Of a stretch of DNA of 64,000 nucleotides, positions 12,711 to 62,242 are shown one piece after another (position 1 is the stretch's first letter; each line of letters begins with the position of its first letter). The position numbers and the translations under genes are program-made. The DNA lies in assembly GCA_022571985.1 (NCBI GenBank), contig JACZWU010000001.1, positions 343,501 to 407,500 on the forward strand, written 5' to 3'. Source of the DNA: Candidatus Zixiibacteriota bacterium (GTDB lineage Bacteria > Zixibacteria > MSB-5A5 > GN15 > FEB-12). A model generated the notes under the pieces. It had not been told where the DNA came from and made no database searches. It worked only from the letters and a program-made list of their open reading frames with translations.

Positions 12711-14078
12711 TTAACAGGGTCCTGGTGCGGGGCCGGCTCTGAATATCCAGTCTACCAGGTAGGTCAGGTCCAATATATTTGAACTATTTCCGTCAGAGTT
12801 AATATCGTTCTCTGTTGGGCAAAATCCTGAAATTCCGCTGCCTCTGAAAATGTAGTCTACGAGAAAAGTCAGATCCAGAATATTTGCATCATCACTATCT
12901 CCATTATAATCGCCTCTAATGCCATCGCAACAGTTTACACGAACAATTATTTCACAGCTGTCAGCATCAGACCCATCAGTGACGAATATCAAGAAGGTGT
13001 AATCAATCCCACTATCGGCATAGGTTGAACTGAAGGTAAACAGTCCTGTGGCACTATCAATTCCGTAGCTGCCGGCCGGTGTCGTGTTCACGCCCCCTAT
13101 GTAAAATATATTTGTGTCACAGTCACCGGCACCAACATCAAAATCAACTACGGCTGACTCAGAATACTCGAGCACTACCAGAGTGTCACATCCGGAAGAA
13201 AACTGAGGTGCAATATTAGTAAAGTTAAGGCTTATAGTACAAGGATACCAACTAAAGTTAGCCCCGGTAGTATCAATGGCGGCAACTTCTATGGATAGAG
13301 CCGTTCCAACATCATTAATAGTAGGAGAGTATGTCCACAGTCCTGTCAATGAATCTATTTCACCGGGACCACTTATAAGCTGGAAAAAGACCGCCGGCGT
13401 ATCAACTTGAGAGCTTATTTGAAATTGATATGCAACATCAGAGCAGTGGTCAAAGTTCAGGCTGGCGGGACATAGCGGGGGTGGGTGTGGTCCAGGATAA
13501 ACAATTGTATAGCAATGAGGGCCACTCCAATCAGGTCGTACTTCGCCAACAGTTGTTGACCACAGCCACTCGTTTACCCAATAATAGGAAGAATCGAGAC
13601 AAATCAAGGCACCGTGATACTTGTGGTGAATACCCGGAAAAGGAATTCTAATCTCCAGTACGTCTCTATCAAAGCCATCTTCAAACCCAATTCCATTCAA
13701 GTTGAAGCTCCCAATTCCTAATGTGTCAGAGCCCGAGCCGGTAACTGCGCTATACATAGAGACTATACCGTCCATTCTTTTTTTCCAGCCACCTCCCGGC
13801 TCAAAAGAGAAATCAAGTGTATCAATAGTCGGCAGCGGCCACTCTATTCCGGAGTTTGAATAAATTCGAAAACCGTTGGTATGGCCGAGCAAAGTACCTC
13901 CGCTATTGTTTCTAAGTGCGATTCTCCAAATAATTGGCGAATCTGTATAGACGGTGTCAACCAAGGGAAAACTGACATAGATTTCACTGTTCTGGCTTTT
14001 GACCGAACCGGCAATTTGGCTTAAAGCTAAGAAGATTGAAAAAATTATTGAATACTTTAAAAATCTAGTACACTGCAC
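12711..14078 (-). CDS. Secreted protein with cadherin/Ig-like repeats and C-terminal dockerin type I-like tail
   Basis: N-terminal hydrophobic segment; C-term GDYNGDSDDANILDLTFLVDYIFRG...NDINSDGNSSNILDLTYLVDWIFRAGPAPGPC. Confidence 0.75.
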   Translation of the reverse strand: MQCTRFLKYSIIFSIFLALSQIAGSVKSQNSEIYVSFPLVDTVYTDSPIIWRIALRNNSGGTLLGHTNGFRIYSNSGIEWPLPTIDTLDFSFEPGGGWKKRMDGIVSMYSAVTGSGSDTLGIGSFNLNGIGFEDGFDRDVLEIRIPFPGIHHKYHGALICLDSSYYWVNEWLWSTTVGEVRPDWSGPHCYTIVYPGPHPPPLCPASLNFDHCSDVAYQFQISSQVDTPAVFFQLISGPGEIDSLTGLWTYSPTINDVGTALSIEVAAIDTTGANFSWYPCTISLNFTNIAPQFSSGCDTLVVLEYSESAVVDFDVGAGDCDTNIFYIGGVNTTPAGSYGIDSATGLFTFSSTYADSGIDYTFLIFVTDGSDADSCEIIVRVNCCDGIRGDYNGDSDDANILDLTFLVDYIFRGSGISGFCPTENDINSDGNSSNILDLTYLVDWIFRAGPAPGPC

Positions 14079-15093: not shown

Positions 15094-16542
15094 TTAGAAG
15101 TATCCCGTAAAGCTGGCTGTCAGAAAATGATTTCTGTTGTTCGACTGTGCTGCAAATCCGAGGCTCTCAAGGCTCAAAGTAGAGTAATTATAGGCCAGGT
15201 CCAGTTTGATCAGCTCCCAGTGAATTCCGGTGCCGAGCGAAAACTCATAGCTGACAGCAGTAGTACGGACGCCATTTATATCTGTATCCGGAGTAGGCAC
15301 CGGCACGTATCCGATACCTGCTCTAAAGGGGATTGTCCCGATACCCGTTTCATTGAGATATTCGGTACCAGCCCGAACAATAAAGACATTGCTCCACTGC
15401 CACTGTTCTTCTGAAAGAATCAGAAATTCTTCTATATTATCTGCGCCGGGAACAAGCGTAATACTCTGGCGAATCTTAATCTGCTGCGCACTAAAATGGC
15501 GATATTCGGCATCAAATGCCAAAAGCAAGCTTTCAGAAACGTTATAGCCAATTCCAAATCCGACCATTAGAGGAATCTCATACTTTGTCAGAAGGTCAAT
15601 AGTAATAGTGGTATCAGTTTCAGCCACAACGCCATTTATCTTAAATATAAAGGCATTATAATTCAGGCTCTTTTGGTTCAAAGAAAAAGGTGTTCTCAAA
15701 ACAAGCCCGGCATCGAATCTTTCGCCATCATGTTTAAGTCCGATGGTAAAATTAAATCCGCCAAAACTACTGCTGTCTGCAGATAATGTAGTCAAATTCA
15801 AAGATCCGTTCTGGAAATTATTTACAGGAATATTGTCACCTGTGATTAAAAAATTGGTATGTCTCTGAACGGCTCCGCCATAGATATTCAGGCTGAAGCC
15901 AAAGGCAAGATTGCCGCTTAATCTTGTTCCAAAACCGAAGTTGACAGCATCAATGCCTCCTTCAAGCTCACTCGTAACACCAACCAATGCAATTACCGTA
16001 TCCTGATCTATCAGAACGCCGACTTCGTTAAATATCGGGAATATTTCAATCAGGTCAAATTCTACGTTAGAGAACTGGTACTCATCGGATACTCTGGTAT
16101 AAGATGCGGATGCAACAAACGGATGTCCCTTGATTCTTATAGGGGCTACAAAGTTTGCCGAACTAAGCGCTCCGAAAGTTCCGGTATGATCACTTGAAAT
16201 TCTTTCGTCGGCACTAAGCAGATTAAATTTGTCGCTGCTGAAATTTCCACGCGGCCTCAATGAACTAAAACTGAGTCCCAGCACAGGCGATTCCATTTTG
16301 TACAGTCCGGCAGGATTCCAGCCGATTGCAGTTATGTCGTCAGATACTCCCAAGTAGGCGTTGCCCATTCCCCGGGCGCGGGCGCCATTGCCAGTAAACT
16401 TAAAGTCGAATGGTTCAAACCGAATAATCTCATCTAGAAATTCTACCTGTGCGTTTGTGCTGAAAAACGGAATTAAAAGTACTCCCAAAACCAGTAAGAT
16501 TCTCTGAATCGATAATTTCATTCCCAAAACTCCTATAGCCAA
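15094..16542 (-). CDS. OmpP1/FadL/PorV-like outer-membrane protein
   Basis: ARARGMGNAYLGVSDDITAIGWNPAGLYKME is the typical N-terminal motif of UPF0164/FadL-like barrels; ends in aromatic FTGYF. Confidence 0.8.
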   Translation of the reverse strand: MAIGVLGMKLSIQRILLVLGVLLIPFFSTNAQVEFLDEIIRFEPFDFKFTGNGARARGMGNAYLGVSDDITAIGWNPAGLYKMESPVLGLSFSSLRPRGNFSSDKFNLLSADERISSDHTGTFGALSSANFVAPIRIKGHPFVASASYTRVSDEYQFSNVEFDLIEIFPIFNEVGVLIDQDTVIALVGVTSELEGGIDAVNFGFGTRLSGNLAFGFSLNIYGGAVQRHTNFLITGDNIPVNNFQNGSLNLTTLSADSSSFGGFNFTIGLKHDGERFDAGLVLRTPFSLNQKSLNYNAFIFKINGVVAETDTTITIDLLTKYEIPLMVGFGIGYNVSESLLLAFDAEYRHFSAQQIKIRQSITLVPGADNIEEFLILSEEQWQWSNVFIVRAGTEYLNETGIGTIPFRAGIGYVPVPTPDTDINGVRTTAVSYEFSLGTGIHWELIKLDLAYNYSTLSLESLGFAAQSNNRNHFLTASFTGYF

Positions 16543-16764: not shown

Positions 16765-19700
16765 TTACTCCGCACAACACGGCGGGGCGCCGGTGCCGTT
16801 TATATAGGCGGCCAGATAGGTGATGTCAGCTATATTTACTGAACCATCACAATTTAAGTCACTCGCCAGGTAAGGGAAAGGCGTAGCACCGCCATAGAAA
16901 TAGAAGTTCAAAAGAAATTCAACATCGTCAACATTTACCAGCGAGTCGCCATTAGCGTCGGCACAGAGAAATCCGAGGTCACAACTCAAGTCAAGCGCTC
17001 CGATCAATGTCCCACAAGTGCTGTACTGTGCCAGACATTGAGAAAAGTTACTGAGATGAAAGTCACCAGCCGCAGTATCGCAGAAAAGTGGGTCGGCTGA
17101 GAAGTTGTCGTTGATATCTGCTTGGTCAGCTATGCAACCTACCCAGTCACCATCTTCATTGCCATAAACATCGCAGCAGGTGAGAGTGGGAACAGAGGTC
17201 TCGTCATTGCACCAGATTAGTTCACTGCCTCTGTTGAAAGCAAAAACAGTATTTTCGACAGATGGGGACGAATTTGTTCGCAAGGACAGGCCGCAGCCTA
17301 AGATGGCTGTATTATCTGTGATAGTGCTGTTGATAATAGAAGGATTGGAACTAATGCAAGAAATCCCGCCGCCGCGGAAGGCTGAATTTCCTGTGATGGT
17401 GTTGTTGCTGATTACTGGATTAGAATTAGACCCACAAACAATCCCGCCGCCAAAGCCATCGTCGGCTGAATTTCCGCTGATGGCGTTGTCGCTGATTGTG
17501 GGACTGGAAGCCTGGCAATAAATCCCGCCGCCAAAGCTAATGCCACTGACAGAATTTCCGCTGATAATATTGTTGATAATGGAGGGACTGGAATTAAGAC
17601 AATAGATTCCGCCGCCAGCCCGAGAGGCTGAATTTTTTATGATGGAGTTGTTAATGATTTTGGGGTTGGAATTATTGACACAAGAAATCCCACCACCACT
17701 TGAGGCTGAAGTTGATGTGTTTTCACTGATTATGTTGTTGCTAATAGTGGGGTTGGAATTTGTGACACAAGAAATCCCGGCCCCACTTGAGAGGGAAGTC
17801 GATGTATTTCTGCTGATAATGTTGTAGCTAATGGTGGGATTGGAATTATCGGTACAAGTAATGCCGCCCATATTTCCATTCGTAATTGTAAACCCTGATA
17901 CTACTGTTAGACTGTCACAACCAATAAGAGTTATCACGGTAAAAGCTGAGTCCCCGTCGATTACAGTATTCTTGATATCAAGAGAGTCGTCAGAATACAG
18001 GTAATTTGAAGTCAACAGAATACTTTTGCCCGAGACAATTATATTCTCAACATATGTCCCATTATCCACAACGACCGTATCACCTGAAAAGGACAGGTCA
18101 ACAGCGTATTGTATCGTTCTGAAAGGGTTCCCCGGAGTGCCGTCGCCGGCGCCATTACTGCCACCAACAGATACATACCAGATATTTCCAAACGAACATC
18201 CCGGATGATCCGGGAAGAACAGGCCAATATCGGAACGGCTTCCATCGGGATCGAGTATAGAAGGGTCGCCTGCATCGATGCAGGGAGATTGAAAGCATAC
18301 ATTGCCGTTAAAGGGACCTACGAAAAGAGGGTCAGTGTCAATGTTTCCCTCGCCTGTCCAGCCATCCTGAATACAACAATAAGTGATCATTGGTAATGAC
18401 GAGTTATTGGTATCAACTTGAATACCGGCGTTTGACCAGATTATTGTGTTTACGATAGCAGGACTGGAATTAGTTAAGTAGACCCCGCTACCAAAATTAG
18501 CAGTAATTGTGTTGTTGCTGATGTCGGCAATTGAAGAAGCGCAAAATATTCCGCCGCCGTTGCTAGCTGAATTCCTGCTGATATAGTTGTTACTGATGGT
18601 GGCATTAGAAGAAGTACAATAAATCCCGCCGCCGTTGCCAGTGAAGCCACCAGCTGAGTTTCCACTGATGGTGTTGTTACTGATGATGGGATTGGAAGAG
18701 CCGCTATATATCCCGCCGCCGGAGTTGTTGGATGAATTTTCAGTGATAGTGTTGCTGCTAATAGTAGGACCTGATTGAACACAAAAAATGCCAGCGCCAC
18801 GTAAACTGGCTGAATTTAATGTGATAATATTGTTTCTGATAGTGGGATTGGAATTTATGCAATAAATTCCGCCGCCTTCTAAAGCATTCCCATTCCTGAT
18901 AGTAAAGCCCATTATCCCTGTCGGGCTATCTTCGCTGCCATCAATGGTTACTACTGTTGAAACAGAATCGCCATCAATAATGGTACTATGGATATCAAGA
19001 CTGTCTCCAGTAAATATATACTCTGAAGTTACCAGAATGCTTTTACCACCGAAGTTGATGTTTTCTATATACGTGCCATTTTCAACAATAACAGTATCAA
19101 GGTGATAGGAAACGTTAATAGTGTGCTGAATTGTTCTAAAAGGATTGCCGGTTGAACCGTCTCCAGCGCCGTCACTGCCGCCAACAGATACATACCAAAT
19201 ATTTCCAGATGAACACACCGGGTGAGCAGGATAAAACACTCCCATATCCGAGCGGGTGCTATCGGGATCCAGTATAGAAGGGTTGCCGGAGTCGATGCAG
19301 GGAGATTGAGAACATATGTTATAGTTGTTGCTATTCGGACCAACAAAAGCAAAAAGAGGGTTGGCATTGATATTTCCCTCACCTGGCCAGCCACCCTCGA
19401 TGTCAGAGTACGTAATTATCAGCGAATTTACTCTCTCCGGAGAAATCTCAGGTCCGATGTTTGCCCAGATGATGGAGTTGCTGATATTAGGAGATGAGAA
19501 TGATCCGCAATAAACTCCAGCGCCGGAGCTGTCAGCTGAGTTTTCTGAAATAGTGTTGCTGCTTATTGATGGACTCGAGGAATCACCGCAATAAATCCCG
19601 CCGCCCGAGATGTTAGCGGAATTCCCTGTGATACTGTTGTTGCTAATACTTGGGCTTGAGAAATCAAGGCAGTAAATTCCACCACCTGACTCGGCTGAAT

Positions 19701-42251: not shown

Positions 42252-43466
42252 TTATCCTTCAATCACTTCACTGACAACGCCGGCGCCGACTGTCTTGCCG
42301 CCCTCGCGGATGGCAAATCGAAGCTCTTTCTCAATTGCTATGGGCATTATCAACTCTACATCCATGGTTACATTATCGCCGGGCATGACCATCTCGACTC
42401 CGCTGGGAAGCTGAGCTATGCCGGTTACATCCGTTGTCCTGAAATAAAACTGGGGACGATATCCCGTGAAAAACGGGGTGTGACGACCACCCTCTTCTTT
42501 GGTCAATATATATACTTCTGCCTTAAACTTGGTGTGAGGCTTGATAGATCCCGGCTTGGCTAACACCATACCGCGCTCGATATCATCGCGATCTACTCCC
42601 CTTAAAAGAAGCCCGACATTATCGCCGGCACGACCCTCATCAAGAAGCTTACGAAACATCTCAACTCCGGTTACTACCGTCTTGGTGGTGTCTTTGATAC
42701 CAACCACTTCGACTTCTTCACCTACCTTGATAATGCCGCGATCTATGCGGCCGGTGCCCACTGTGCCGCGACCCGTTATCGAAAAGACATCTTCAATCGG
42801 CATCAAAAAGGGCTTGTCTATCTCACGCTTGGGATCCGGGATATAATTATCTAAAGAGTCTATCAACTCAACTATCGATTTGAAAGCCGGATCATCAAGA
42901 CTCTTCGATTCATCCAAGCCGGCTGTCATGGCCTGCAAGGCTGAACCACGGATTACAGGTATATCATCACCAGGAAACTCATAGACGCTTAAAAGCTCTC
43001 TGACTTCAAGCTCGACTAAGTCCAGCAGCTCCGGGTCATCGACCTGGTCGACTTTATTCATATAAACTATGATATAAGGAACGCCTACCTGACGAGCCAG
43101 AAGAATATGCTCGCGGGTCTGAGGCATTGGACCATCGGAAGCCGATACCACCAGAATGGCTCCATCCATCTGAGCCGCGCCGGTTATCATATTCTTGACA
43201 TAGTCCGCGTGACCGGGACAGTCGACGTGGGCATAGTGACGATTCTCTGATTCGTATTCTACGTGAGAGGTGGCAATGGTGATGCCCCGTTCACGTTCTT
43301 CGGGAGCGTTATCTATCGAGTCGAACGAACGGACCTCTGTGTTACCGCTCTTGCGTGACAAATACATGGTCATCGCCGCGGTCAGAGTTGTCTTTCCGTG
43401 ATCAACATGACCGATAGTACCTACATTTACATGTGGTTTCGTGCGCTCAAATTTCGCCTTGGCCAT
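42252..43466 (-). CDS. tuf: Elongation factor Tu, copy 1 (str operon)
   Basis: [39 protein letters not shown]. Confidence 0.99.
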
Positions 43467-58094: not shown

Positions 58095-59309
58095 TTATCC
58101 TTCAATCACTTCACTGACAACGCCGGCGCCGACTGTCTTGCCACCCTCGCGGATGGCAAAACGAAGCTCTTTCTCAATTGCTATGGGCATTATCAACTCA
58201 ACATCCATGGTTACATTATCGCCGGGCATGACCATCTCAACTCCACTGGGAAGCTGGGCTATGCCGGTTACATCCGTTGTCCTGAAATAAAACTGTGGAC
58301 GATAACCTGTGAAAAACGGGGTGTGGCGACCACCCTCTTCTTTGGTCAATATATATACTTCTGCCTTAAACTTGGTGTGAGGCTTGATCGATCCCGGCTT
58401 GGCCAGTACCATGCCGCGCTCGATATCTTCACGATTGACGCCTCTTAAAAGAAGACCAACATTATCGCCGGCACGACCCTCATCAAGAAGCTTACGAAAC
58501 ATCTCTACGCCGGTTACGACCGTCTTAGTGGTGTCTTTGATACCAACCACTTCGACTTCTTCGCCGACCTTGACTATGCCGCGATCTATACGGCCGGTGC
58601 CCACTGTGCCGCGACCCGTTATCGAAAAGACATCTTCAATCGGCATCAAAAAGGGCTTGTCTATCTCACGCTTAGGCTCCGGGATATATTCATCTAAAGC
58701 CGTTATCAACTCAACTATCGATTTGAAAGCCGCATCATCAAGACTCTTCGATTCATCCAAGCCGGCTGTCATGGCCTGCAAGGCTGAACCACGGATTACA
58801 GGTATATCATCACCCGGAAACTCATAGACGCTTAAAAGCTCTCTGACTTCAAGCTCTACTAAGTCCAATAGCTCCGGGTCATCGACCTGGTCGACTTTAT
58901 TCATATAAACTATGATAAAAGGAACGCCAACCTGACGGGCTAAAAGAATATGCTCACGGGTCTGAGGCATAGGGCCGTCAGATGCTGATACCACCAGAAT
59001 GGCTCCATCCATCTGAGCTGCGCCGGTTATCATGTTCTTGACATAGTCCGCGTGACCGGGACAGTCAACGTGGGCATAGTGACGATTCTCTGATTCGTAT
59101 TCTACGTGAGAGGTGGCAATGGTGATGCCTCTTTCACGCTCTTCGGGAGCGTTATCTATCGAGTCGAACGAACGGACCTCGGTGTTACCGCTCTTGCGTG
59201 CCAAATACATGGTCATCGCCGCGGTCAGAGTTGTCTTTCCGTGATCAACATGACCGATAGTACCTACATTTACATGTGGTTTCGTGCGCTCAAATTTCGC
59301 CTTGGCCAT
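58095..59309 (-). CDS. tuf: Elongation factor Tu, copy 2 (secE-nusG cluster)
   Basis: Nearly identical to the 42252..43466 product. Confidence 0.99.
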
Positions 59310-59854: not shown

Positions 59855-62242
59855 ATGCCTAGAGGTAATCCATTTGCATTGCAACAGCTTACTATTCTTC
59901 TCGTTGTTTTAGTTTCTCTAACAGCACAAACAGCATATTCACAAAAACCAATCAAATCAATGGATTTGAATGATAATCTGTCAAATGTCCGGATAACTAA
60001 AAATATCACCTCAATGCCCTTGGCTTTTACTGCCAATCAGGGTCAATGGGACGATAAGGTTAAGTTTAGGGCCAATGCCGGTGGAGCTACCATGTGGTTC
60101 GGTCCCGACGGTGCCTACTACCAATTCAGTCGCAGAATCGAAACTGAGGATAAAGCTCCATACTCTATTGCGGAAAAACGGTATGGTTTGATGCCAGATG
60201 AAATGATGGATAGACAATCGTACTCTGTAGAAACTATGATGATCAAAGCCACATTTGTGGGAGCCAATCCAAATCCACAAATGACCGGCGTTGATATGAT
60301 GGAGTACAAATGTAACTACTTCATCGGCAATGATCCGAACGAATGGCATACCGATGTTCCCAACTACTCTGCCGTATTGTACGAAGAAATATATGACGGT
60401 ATAAACTTGAAGTACTACGGCAACGGCAGGCAGATGGAGTATGATTTTATCGTCTCCCCCGGCGCTGACTATTCGCAGATAATGATACAGTATGAAGGCG
60501 CTGAATCCATCTCGATTAATACAAGTGGAGAGCTGGTAGTTACAACAAAATGGGGTAAAGTGATTGAGCAACGCCCTGTTATTTATCAGATAGAAAACAA
60601 CTCCCGTATTGCTGTCACCGGTGAATATAAAATGATGGATGATAATTCATTCGGGTTTGAGCTCAGTAGCAGCTATAACCCGGCGTTGCCACTGGTAATT
60701 GACCCTCTGTTATCTTACAGTACATACCTAGGGGGGAGCGACACTGATGCTGGTTATGGCATTGCGGTGGATGGTTCCGGCAACGCCTATATTACCGGCT
60801 CGACAGTTTCCGCGGATTTCCCAAGCGAAGGAGAATATCAAGCAGATCAGAGCGGTCAGGACGCCTTCGTGACCAAATTAAATCCTTCTGGCAATGCATT
60901 GGTTTACAGCACCTACCTGGGGGGAACTAGTGACGAATATGGCTATAGAATCGCCGTAGACCATTCCGGCAACGTCTATATTACCGGCGCGACGATTTCC
61001 TCGGATTTTCCAACCAAGGAAGAATACCAAACCTATCAGGGTGCTGTTGATGGCTTTGTAACAAAACTAAATAGTACCGGTGATTCTTTAGTCTACAGCA
61101 CTTACCTGGGGGGAACTAGTGACGAATATGTCTCGGGCATTGCAGTGGACGGTTCCGGCAATGCCTATATTACAGGCGTCACTTTTTCCACCGATTTTCC
61201 AATCGAAGGAGCATACCAAACCTATCAGGGTGACTGGGATGCTTTTGTAACCAAACTGAATCCTGCCGGTAGTGCTCTAGTATACAGCACCTACCTGGGG
61301 GGAAGTGGTCTTGATTTTAGCGGTGGCATTGCTTTGGACGTATCCGGCAATGCCTATATTACAGGCGTCACTTTTTCCACCGATTTTCCAATCGAAGGAG
61401 CATACCAAACCTATCAGGGTGACTGGGATGCCTTTGTTACGAAACTAAACAATTCCGGCGATTCCTTAGTGTTCAGCACCTACCTTGGGGGAAGCAGTAG
61501 TGATGTTGGCCAAGACATCGCCGTGGACAGTACAGGTAATGTTTATATAACTGGTCTTACTCTTTCCACCGATTTCCCAATCGAAGGAGCATTTCAGGCC
61601 ACTCCGGGTGGTCAGGATGCCTTCGTAACAAAACTGAATTCTTCCGGCAATGCTTTAGTTTATAGCACCTACCTGGGGGGAGGTGGTAATGACGAAAGCT
61701 TCGGTATTACAGTCGATGGTTCCGGCAATGCTTATATTACCGGCTATACTCGTTCAACCGATTTTCCAACCGAGGGTACAAACCAAACTTATCAAGGTGA
61801 ACAAGATGCCTTCGTGACCAAACTAGATTCTTCCGGTAGTGCTTTGGCTTACAGCACATACCTAGGGGGGGGTGGTAGAGACAATGCCTGGGACATCGCA
61901 GTGGATGGTTCCGGCAATGCTTATTTAGTAGGAAAGACTTGGTCCACCGATTTTCCAACCGAGGGAGAATTCCAGACCTTTCAGGGTAGCTCTGATGTTT
62001 TTGTGTCCAAATTTACTACCAATTGCTGTGTCGGCAATCGTGGTGACTTAAACGGCGATGGAGATGACGCCAATATTCTCGACCTGACATTCGCAGTTGA
62101 CAGAATTTTCCGAGGCGGGTCGGCGTCTCTCTGCCCGGAAGAAGGAGATGCTAACGGAGATAGCGACCCAACCAACATCCTGGACTTGACGTTTCTGGTA
62201 GACAGAATATTCCGCGGCGGCCCGCCACCGGGATCATGCTGA
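59855..62242 (+). CDS. Secreted SBBP (beta-propeller) repeat protein with C-terminal dockerin-like tail
   Basis: TANQGQWDDKVKFRANAGGATMWFGPDGAYYQF N-domain; repeats YSTYLGGS..D.G.GIAVDGSGNAYITG.T.STDFP; ends GDLNGDGDDANILDLTFAVDRIFRGG...PPPGSC. Confidence 0.92.
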   Translation: MPRGNPFALQQLTILLVVLVSLTAQTAYSQKPIKSMDLNDNLSNVRITKNITSMPLAFTANQGQWDDKVKFRANAGGATMWFGPDGAYYQFSRRIETEDKAPYSIAEKRYGLMPDEMMDRQSYSVETMMIKATFVGANPNPQMTGVDMMEYKCNYFIGNDPNEWHTDVPNYSAVLYEEIYDGINLKYYGNGRQMEYDFIVSPGADYSQIMIQYEGAESISINTSGELVVTTKWGKVIEQRPVIYQIENNSRIAVTGEYKMMDDNSFGFELSSSYNPALPLVIDPLLSYSTYLGGSDTDAGYGIAVDGSGNAYITGSTVSADFPSEGEYQADQSGQDAFVTKLNPSGNALVYSTYLGGTSDEYGYRIAVDHSGNVYITGATISSDFPTKEEYQTYQGAVDGFVTKLNSTGDSLVYSTYLGGTSDEYVSGIAVDGSGNAYITGVTFSTDFPIEGAYQTYQGDWDAFVTKLNPAGSALVYSTYLGGSGLDFSGGIALDVSGNAYITGVTFSTDFPIEGAYQTYQGDWDAFVTKLNNSGDSLVFSTYLGGSSSDVGQDIAVDSTGNVYITGLTLSTDFPIEGAFQATPGGQDAFVTKLNSSGNALVYSTYLGGGGNDESFGITVDGSGNAYITGYTRSTDFPTEGTNQTYQGEQDAFVTKLDSSGSALAYSTYLGGGGRDNAWDIAVDGSGNAYLVGKTWSTDFPTEGEFQTFQGSSDVFVSKFTTNCCVGNRGDLNGDGDDANILDLTFAVDRIFRGGSASLCPEEGDANGDSDPTNILDLTFLVDRIFRGGPPPGSC

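Follow-up and report, generated by a model that had tools for sequence, protein, structure and literature searches.

The C-terminal tail shared by several proteins encoded in this stretch of a Candidatus Zixiibacteriota genome is, to judge from sequence comparison, a dockerin, and it probably belongs to a non-cellulosomal cohesin-dockerin surface-assembly system that is anchored via the type IX secretion system (T9SS) and in which the tail would bind putative cohesin partners. The window, that is, the whole stretch of 64,000 nucleotides that was analysed, corresponds to C1:343501-407500 of a 2.93 Mb genome in 17 contigs, and the features under study are listed in Table 1.

Table 1 Coordinates of the tail-bearing proteins and their domains in the window
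Feature	Position	Strand	Description
P0001	12711..14078	-	GTG start, Sec-type signal peptide, predicted cohesin-fold domain, cadherin-like repeats, dockerin tail
P0001 C-terminal dockerin	12714..12932	-	Two Ca-loop/helix repeats, GDYNGDSDDANILDLTFLVDYIFRG + NDINSDGNSSNILDLTYLVDWIFRA
P0001 cadherin/Ig-like repeats	12936..13478	-	
P0001 body domain 1 ('PDWS' family)	13479..13988	-	Without Pfam match; predicted cohesin fold (AF2, Foldseek)
P0002	16765..20442	-	Right-handed beta-helix protein with divergent dockerin tail
P0002 divergent C-terminal dockerin	16768..16959	-	
P0003	59855..62242	+	DUF7948, SBBP beta-propeller repeats, dockerin tail
P0003 C-terminal dockerin	62024..62239	+	CC / C / C-terminal Cys pattern as in P0001
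P0005	62388..63998	+	Second DUF7948/SBBP protein; runs past the window edge

The preliminary description had pointed to a common tail on P0001 and P0003 that is far more similar than their unrelated bodies. The tails quoted there match the sequence letter for letter, and the comparison agrees: 50 of 75 tail residues are identical (67%, E 1e-27), whereas the bodies yielded no significant alignment, the highest score outside the tails being 18.9 bits (E 0.63). In P0001, the dockerin carries a pair of Cys at its start, one Cys between the repeats and one at the C-terminus. The divergent copy noticed in the beta-helix protein P0002 was also recovered (27/63 identical, E 4e-6); it scores 19.3 bits with Pfam Dockerin_1, under the cut-off of 22.9, and 74.8 bits with a profile built from the tails. 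The dockerin tail of P0005 lies just beyond the window (C1:408090-408299, L047), so that P0003 and P0005 form a tandem of DUF7948/SBBP paralogues with a dockerin tail on each. Between P0002 and P0001, positions 15094-16542 (minus strand) encode an outer-membrane beta-barrel-type protein with weak similarity to PorV/PorQ (48 bits, cut-off 90) and to BamG (54.9 bits, cut-off 250). The region from 22 to 58 kb of the window resembles a ribosomal-protein/RNA polymerase cluster and not a prophage, and two EF-Tu-like genes (42252-43466 and 58095-59309, minus strand) were seen around genes of the EF-G and rpoB/rpoC types.

Type I dockerins (PF00404) are built of a loop-helix unit of about 22 residues that occurs twice in tandem and binds Ca through D-x-N-x-D...D ligands. 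Both repeats of the tail follow the pattern GD-x-N-x-D-G...N-I-L-D-L-T-(F/Y)-L-V-D-x-I-F-R-G-G, and a profile of 34 tails, when compared with the PDB, matched dockerins only (4fl4 at E 3.7e-5, then CelS, XynY and others), the alignment running from end to end. Instead of the canonical 12-residue Ca loop of type I, most tails have one of 13 residues; this length was counted for loop 1 in 58 of 79 tails (12 residues in 14) and for loop 2 in 68 (12 residues in 9). This is a variant loop and not a different fold. The 13-residue loops place the tails of P0001 and P0003 under the Pfam threshold and, with the one-residue insertion present in most Ca loops, Dockerin_1 misses most tails of the genome, where it matches 25 places only, 19 of them over the cut-off. 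Positions 10, 11, 17, 18 and 22, which correspond to the recognition positions of cellulosomal dockerins, are I, L, V, D and R in both repeats and near-invariant (R in 79/79), so that a single specificity is probably common to all tagged proteins. Repeat similarity is 0.76 within a tail and 0.72 between tails, a difference that is uninformative.

When the genome was searched with the P0003 tail as phmmer query, 103 places were found, and the 34-tail profile gave 104 at E <= 0.001. Such a recurrence goes far beyond chance. In the stretches taken around the matches, 97 ORFs carry the tail, and in 94 of them the distance from the last copy to the stop is 0-12 residues (a count in which one gene was entered twice, through overlapping stretches). 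Of the other three, two have a T9SS tail behind the dockerin, and the frame of the third is unclear. Among relatives, tails were detected in all 61 genomes of the order (our own and 60 relatives searched; 48 genera, 4 families), with 2 to at least 101 copies and a median of roughly 66 tagged proteins per genome. The suggestion that the tail is a portable C-terminal module of a lineage-wide surface-retention or assembly system thus gains support, the module being present in every one of the 60 relatives. At L067 and L094, tandem dockerins were observed, a second, more divergent dockerin standing directly before the terminal one (three proteins), and L077 (C9:29427-29612) is a 9,871-residue open frame that ends in a divergent dockerin without Cys.

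The terminal Cys had been put forward as part of a surface-anchoring tag, a role that was not supported. In 83 of 88 tails, the terminal Cys occurs together with a further Cys, which lies ahead of repeat 1, in between repeats 1 and 2 or within the Ca loop of repeat 2; the other five tails have neither, and mixed cases are absent (Fisher p 2.6e-8). In addition, 1-5 residues follow the terminal Cys in most tails. This perfect covariation fits a disulfide, and on its account the terminal Cys was rejected as a lipid or covalent anchor; most likely, the terminal Cys is half of an intramolecular disulfide clasp. Dockerin termini are known to be joined by an intramolecular clasp of stacking residues (cited in PMC5864761), and the disulfide suggested by the covariation may be the natural equivalent of that clasp.

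The genome was also examined for cohesins. PF00963 matched ten places, of which three pass the cut-off on their own and a fourth does so when its neighbours are counted in, and in eight of the ten a Por_Secre_tail was found in the same ORF. A profile made from five such PF00963/Por-tailed proteins (the 'WEYF' profile, A2) matched nine places of the genome, and its best matches in the PDB were cohesins only (E from 0.0017). The AF2 model of the L168 cohesin with the following region had a mean pLDDT of 87, and Foldseek with this model returned cohesins for all of the top 29 matches (E 1.7e-8, TM (target) up to 0.80). A PF00963 match at E <= 0.01 was present in 19 of 49 WEYF members. By predicted fold and by sequence signature, the WEYF family is a cohesin family. 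Almost all of its relatives come from MAGs that bear the name Candidatus Zixiibacteriota or candidate division Zixibacteria, and it occurs in 60 of the 61 genomes at 2-22 copies; in the remaining genome (G032), 31 dockerins were counted but no WEYF cohesin.

Within the 80 zixibacterial loci, a Por (T9SS type-A) sorting tail ends 89 of the 92 WEYF ORFs that could be judged. The usual layout starts with a signal peptide and a PDWS domain and/or cadherin-like repeats; the WEYF cohesin comes next, then an internal dockerin of the divergent kind, and an Ig-like part leads to the T9SS type-A tail. Each ORF carries a single WEYF cohesin, with the sole exception of L170, which has two. L122 (C3:132380-133775) has a pair of short neighbouring genes, one for a PDWS-family protein and one for a WEYF cohesin, each of them standing alone without dockerin or T9SS tail. 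The earlier statement that no cohesin is visible thus holds for the annotated domains of the window but not for the genome, which has PF00963 matches over the cut-off and the larger, lineage-specific and mostly T9SS-tailed WEYF family. A classical cohesin scaffold alongside the tail had been named as evidence against a lineage-specific system; cohesins were indeed found, but they do not make up a multi-cohesin scaffoldin of the classical cellulosomal kind.

The first body domain of P0001 gave no Pfam match and no sequence match to cohesins, and its AF2 model (mean pLDDT 79) has cohesins as the nine best Foldseek matches in the PDB, with TM (query) values of 0.47-0.60. This domain and the cadherin-like part are 41% identical over 397 residues to the protein encoded at C11:11777-14482, which ends in a WEYF cohesin, an internal dockerin and a T9SS tail and has no dockerin tag. 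The alignment identifies the two proteins as one body with two alternative C-terminal modules. Given the cohesin fold predicted for the PDWS domain, P0001 may offer a socket as well as a plug, which is suggestive only.

The genome also encodes T9SS components, with SprA at 538 bits (cut-off 200) and full-length PorU at 628 bits (cut-off 420), and SprA was found in 59 of the 61 genomes. Type II secretion was considered as the export route and set aside, the genome having only secretin matches under the cut-off. A Sec-type signal, assigned by rule, is present in 81 of 92 dockerin-tailed ORFs, as against 5 of 36 ORFs of the ribosomal cluster in the window. Among the 77 tagged proteins scanned with Pfam, repeats and adhesion domains dominate; the bodies include FG-GAP (9), TSP_3 (7), Peptidase_S8 (subtilase, 6), LVIVD (6), DUF7948/SBBP (3), C-type lectin (2), PKD (2) and Peptidase_M14 (carboxypeptidase, 2). 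No glycoside hydrolase is among the 25 most frequent families of these 77 proteins, to which 18 rarer families add. In function, the tagged set is probably not a cellulosome.

The strongest evidence that dockerin and cohesin form a functional pair is their synteny across genera, as read from gene order. Among the 49 WEYF genes with enough upstream sequence, 16 are immediately preceded by a dockerin-tailed gene of the same orientation, and all 16 but L197 belong to one conserved family; in our own genome, the family member C11:14711-15835 stands in front of the cohesin gene C11:11777-14482. Set against about 100 dockerin genes in about 2,600, this linkage has a binomial p of 2e-11, which is only indicative because the loci are related and the gene number is estimated. 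A coevolution of copy numbers was considered as well and dropped: across the 61 genomes, dockerin and cohesin counts correlate with rho 0.48, and the partial rho after correction for genome size is 0.16 (p 0.22), so that genome size accounts for the correlation.

We infer from these comparisons that tail and cohesin pair physically, that the assembly is located at the surface and that the dockerin proteins cross the outer membrane. About a hundred diverse proteins (beta-propellers, subtilases, lectins, beta-helices, thrombospondin-3 and Ig-like proteins) would be exported by Sec and would then fold with Ca2+ and disulfide, the two Ca loop-helix repeats of the C-terminal dockerin tag forming a small plug whose ends are clasped by the disulfide with the terminal Cys. 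The plug would most likely bind cohesins of the Zixibacteria-specific family. The cohesin carriers, multidomain proteins with a Por sorting tail and therefore candidates for surface display and anchoring via SprA and PorU, would provide the sockets, and the whole would amount to a surface coat or assembly that is anchored via T9SS and is not a cellulosome.

Several observations count against the pairing of tail and cohesin. About 100 dockerins face about 10 cohesins, mostly in single-cohesin proteins; a divergent dockerin immediately follows the cohesin in the same protein and could occupy it; one genome has dockerins and no WEYF cohesin; and the copy-number correlation vanishes after genome-size correction. 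The last three would equally suit a tail that is a dockerin-fold stabilising cap without partner, a Ca2+/disulfide-locked knob protecting exported proteins, with the cohesin-like domains being adhesion domains paired with their own internal dockerins. Such a cap, however, would need neither near-invariant recognition-face residues in both repeats nor a conserved linkage of dockerin and cohesin genes across genera, and we regard it as unlikely. We consider it quite improbable that the tail acts in its own right as a signal for sorting or anchoring, with its terminal Cys attached to the envelope or with the tail read by a dedicated secretion machine. Its strictly C-terminal position, the tagged proteins without T9SS tail and the replacement of the T9SS tail on homologous bodies would agree with such a role, but the terminal Cys is always accompanied by a second Cys and lost with it, residues follow it in most tails, and the dockerin fold family is a known binding module. 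Moreover, the tails are acidic and have neither the terminal hydrophobic helix nor the basic end of PEP-CTERM, MYXO-CTERM or LPXTG-type signals.

Cellulosomes are recognised by a non-catalytic scaffoldin with several cohesins and by plant-wall glycoside hydrolases that bear dockerins. A strict cellulosome-like enzyme complex for polymer degradation could draw on the hydrolases among the tagged proteins (Peptidase_S8 in 6/77, Peptidase_M14 in 2/77), but it is highly improbable here, where glycoside hydrolases are missing from the most frequent families, repeats and adhesion domains prevail, and scaffolds usually have one WEYF cohesin and exceptionally two. The preferred explanation, a cohesin-dockerin assembly anchored via T9SS, has its own weak point in the outer-membrane route, since the dockerin proteins are without T9SS tail and the search of the genome gave no clear type II secretin. 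One way around this, which we hold to be unlikely, is that T9SS exports the dockerin proteins as non-covalent passengers, which would plug, perhaps while still in the periplasm, into a cohesin borne by a T9SS cargo and would reach the surface although they have no T9SS tail themselves; T9SS would then have an adaptor branch for about 100 proteins in each genome across Zixibacteria.

Among published cases, Ca. Stygibacter (Cloacimonadota, FCB-group) comes closest; its single 3,755-residue scaffoldin combines tandem cohesins with CBMs and is reported to have a conserved C-terminal domain that would attach it to the cell surface, T9SS being cited for this, and a few of its hydrolases are dockerin-tagged (PMC8542988). 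Both cases have proteins with a signal peptide and a C-terminal dockerin, and a cohesin scaffold with a C-terminal domain for putative surface attachment; unlike Ca. Stygibacter, the Zixibacteria have a distinct family of cohesins, mostly one to a T9SS-tailed protein, and about 100 mainly non-enzymatic tagged proteins with dockerins that are presumably Cys-clasped, throughout the order searched. With the type I clostridial cellulosome, they have in common the dockerin fold with two near-identical repeats, the cohesin fold of the partner and a scaffold dockerin of a different type, whereas the predicted anchoring by a T9SS tail and not by SLH or sortase, the 13-residue Ca loops, the presumed disulfide clasp and the apparently non-cellulolytic cargo set them apart, and no multi-cohesin CBM scaffoldin was found. 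Noncellulosomal dockerin-cohesin sets are also known from ANME archaea, where many dockerin and cohesin proteins unrelated to cellulose are proposed to serve surface attachment (PMC9012536); those sets differ in their S-layer context and archaeal hosts and are without T9SS. The T9SS type-A tail (PF18962/YPNPFNP) resembles the dockerin tail in being a C-terminal module on many exported proteins of one genome and on homologous bodies, but the folds differ, the dockerin tail is used in its place and, where both occur, the dockerin is internal.

A 2024 survey of cellulosome-displaying bacteria does not include Zixibacteria (PMC11557425), and in the literature library searched, no paper links dockerins with Zixibacteria or Zixibacteria with type IX secretion. 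The kind of system is already known; what is new is its scale, the single-cohesin T9SS-tailed scaffolds, the Cys-clasped dockerins with 13-residue loops and the order-wide conservation. If the proposed pairing is true, it raises the testable question by what route proteins that lack a T9SS tail come to a partner anchored via T9SS. It would also supply a compact rule for annotating a large part of the uncharacterised exported proteins, which would be marked either by a dockerin tail that Pfam overlooks because of the inserted residue or by a WEYF cohesin combined with a Por tail. A whole uncultured phylum would then decorate its surface by plug and socket, with roughly 66 tagged proteins per genome, and the logic of the cellulosome would be a general principle of surface assembly in T9SS bacteria, not one specific to cellulose.
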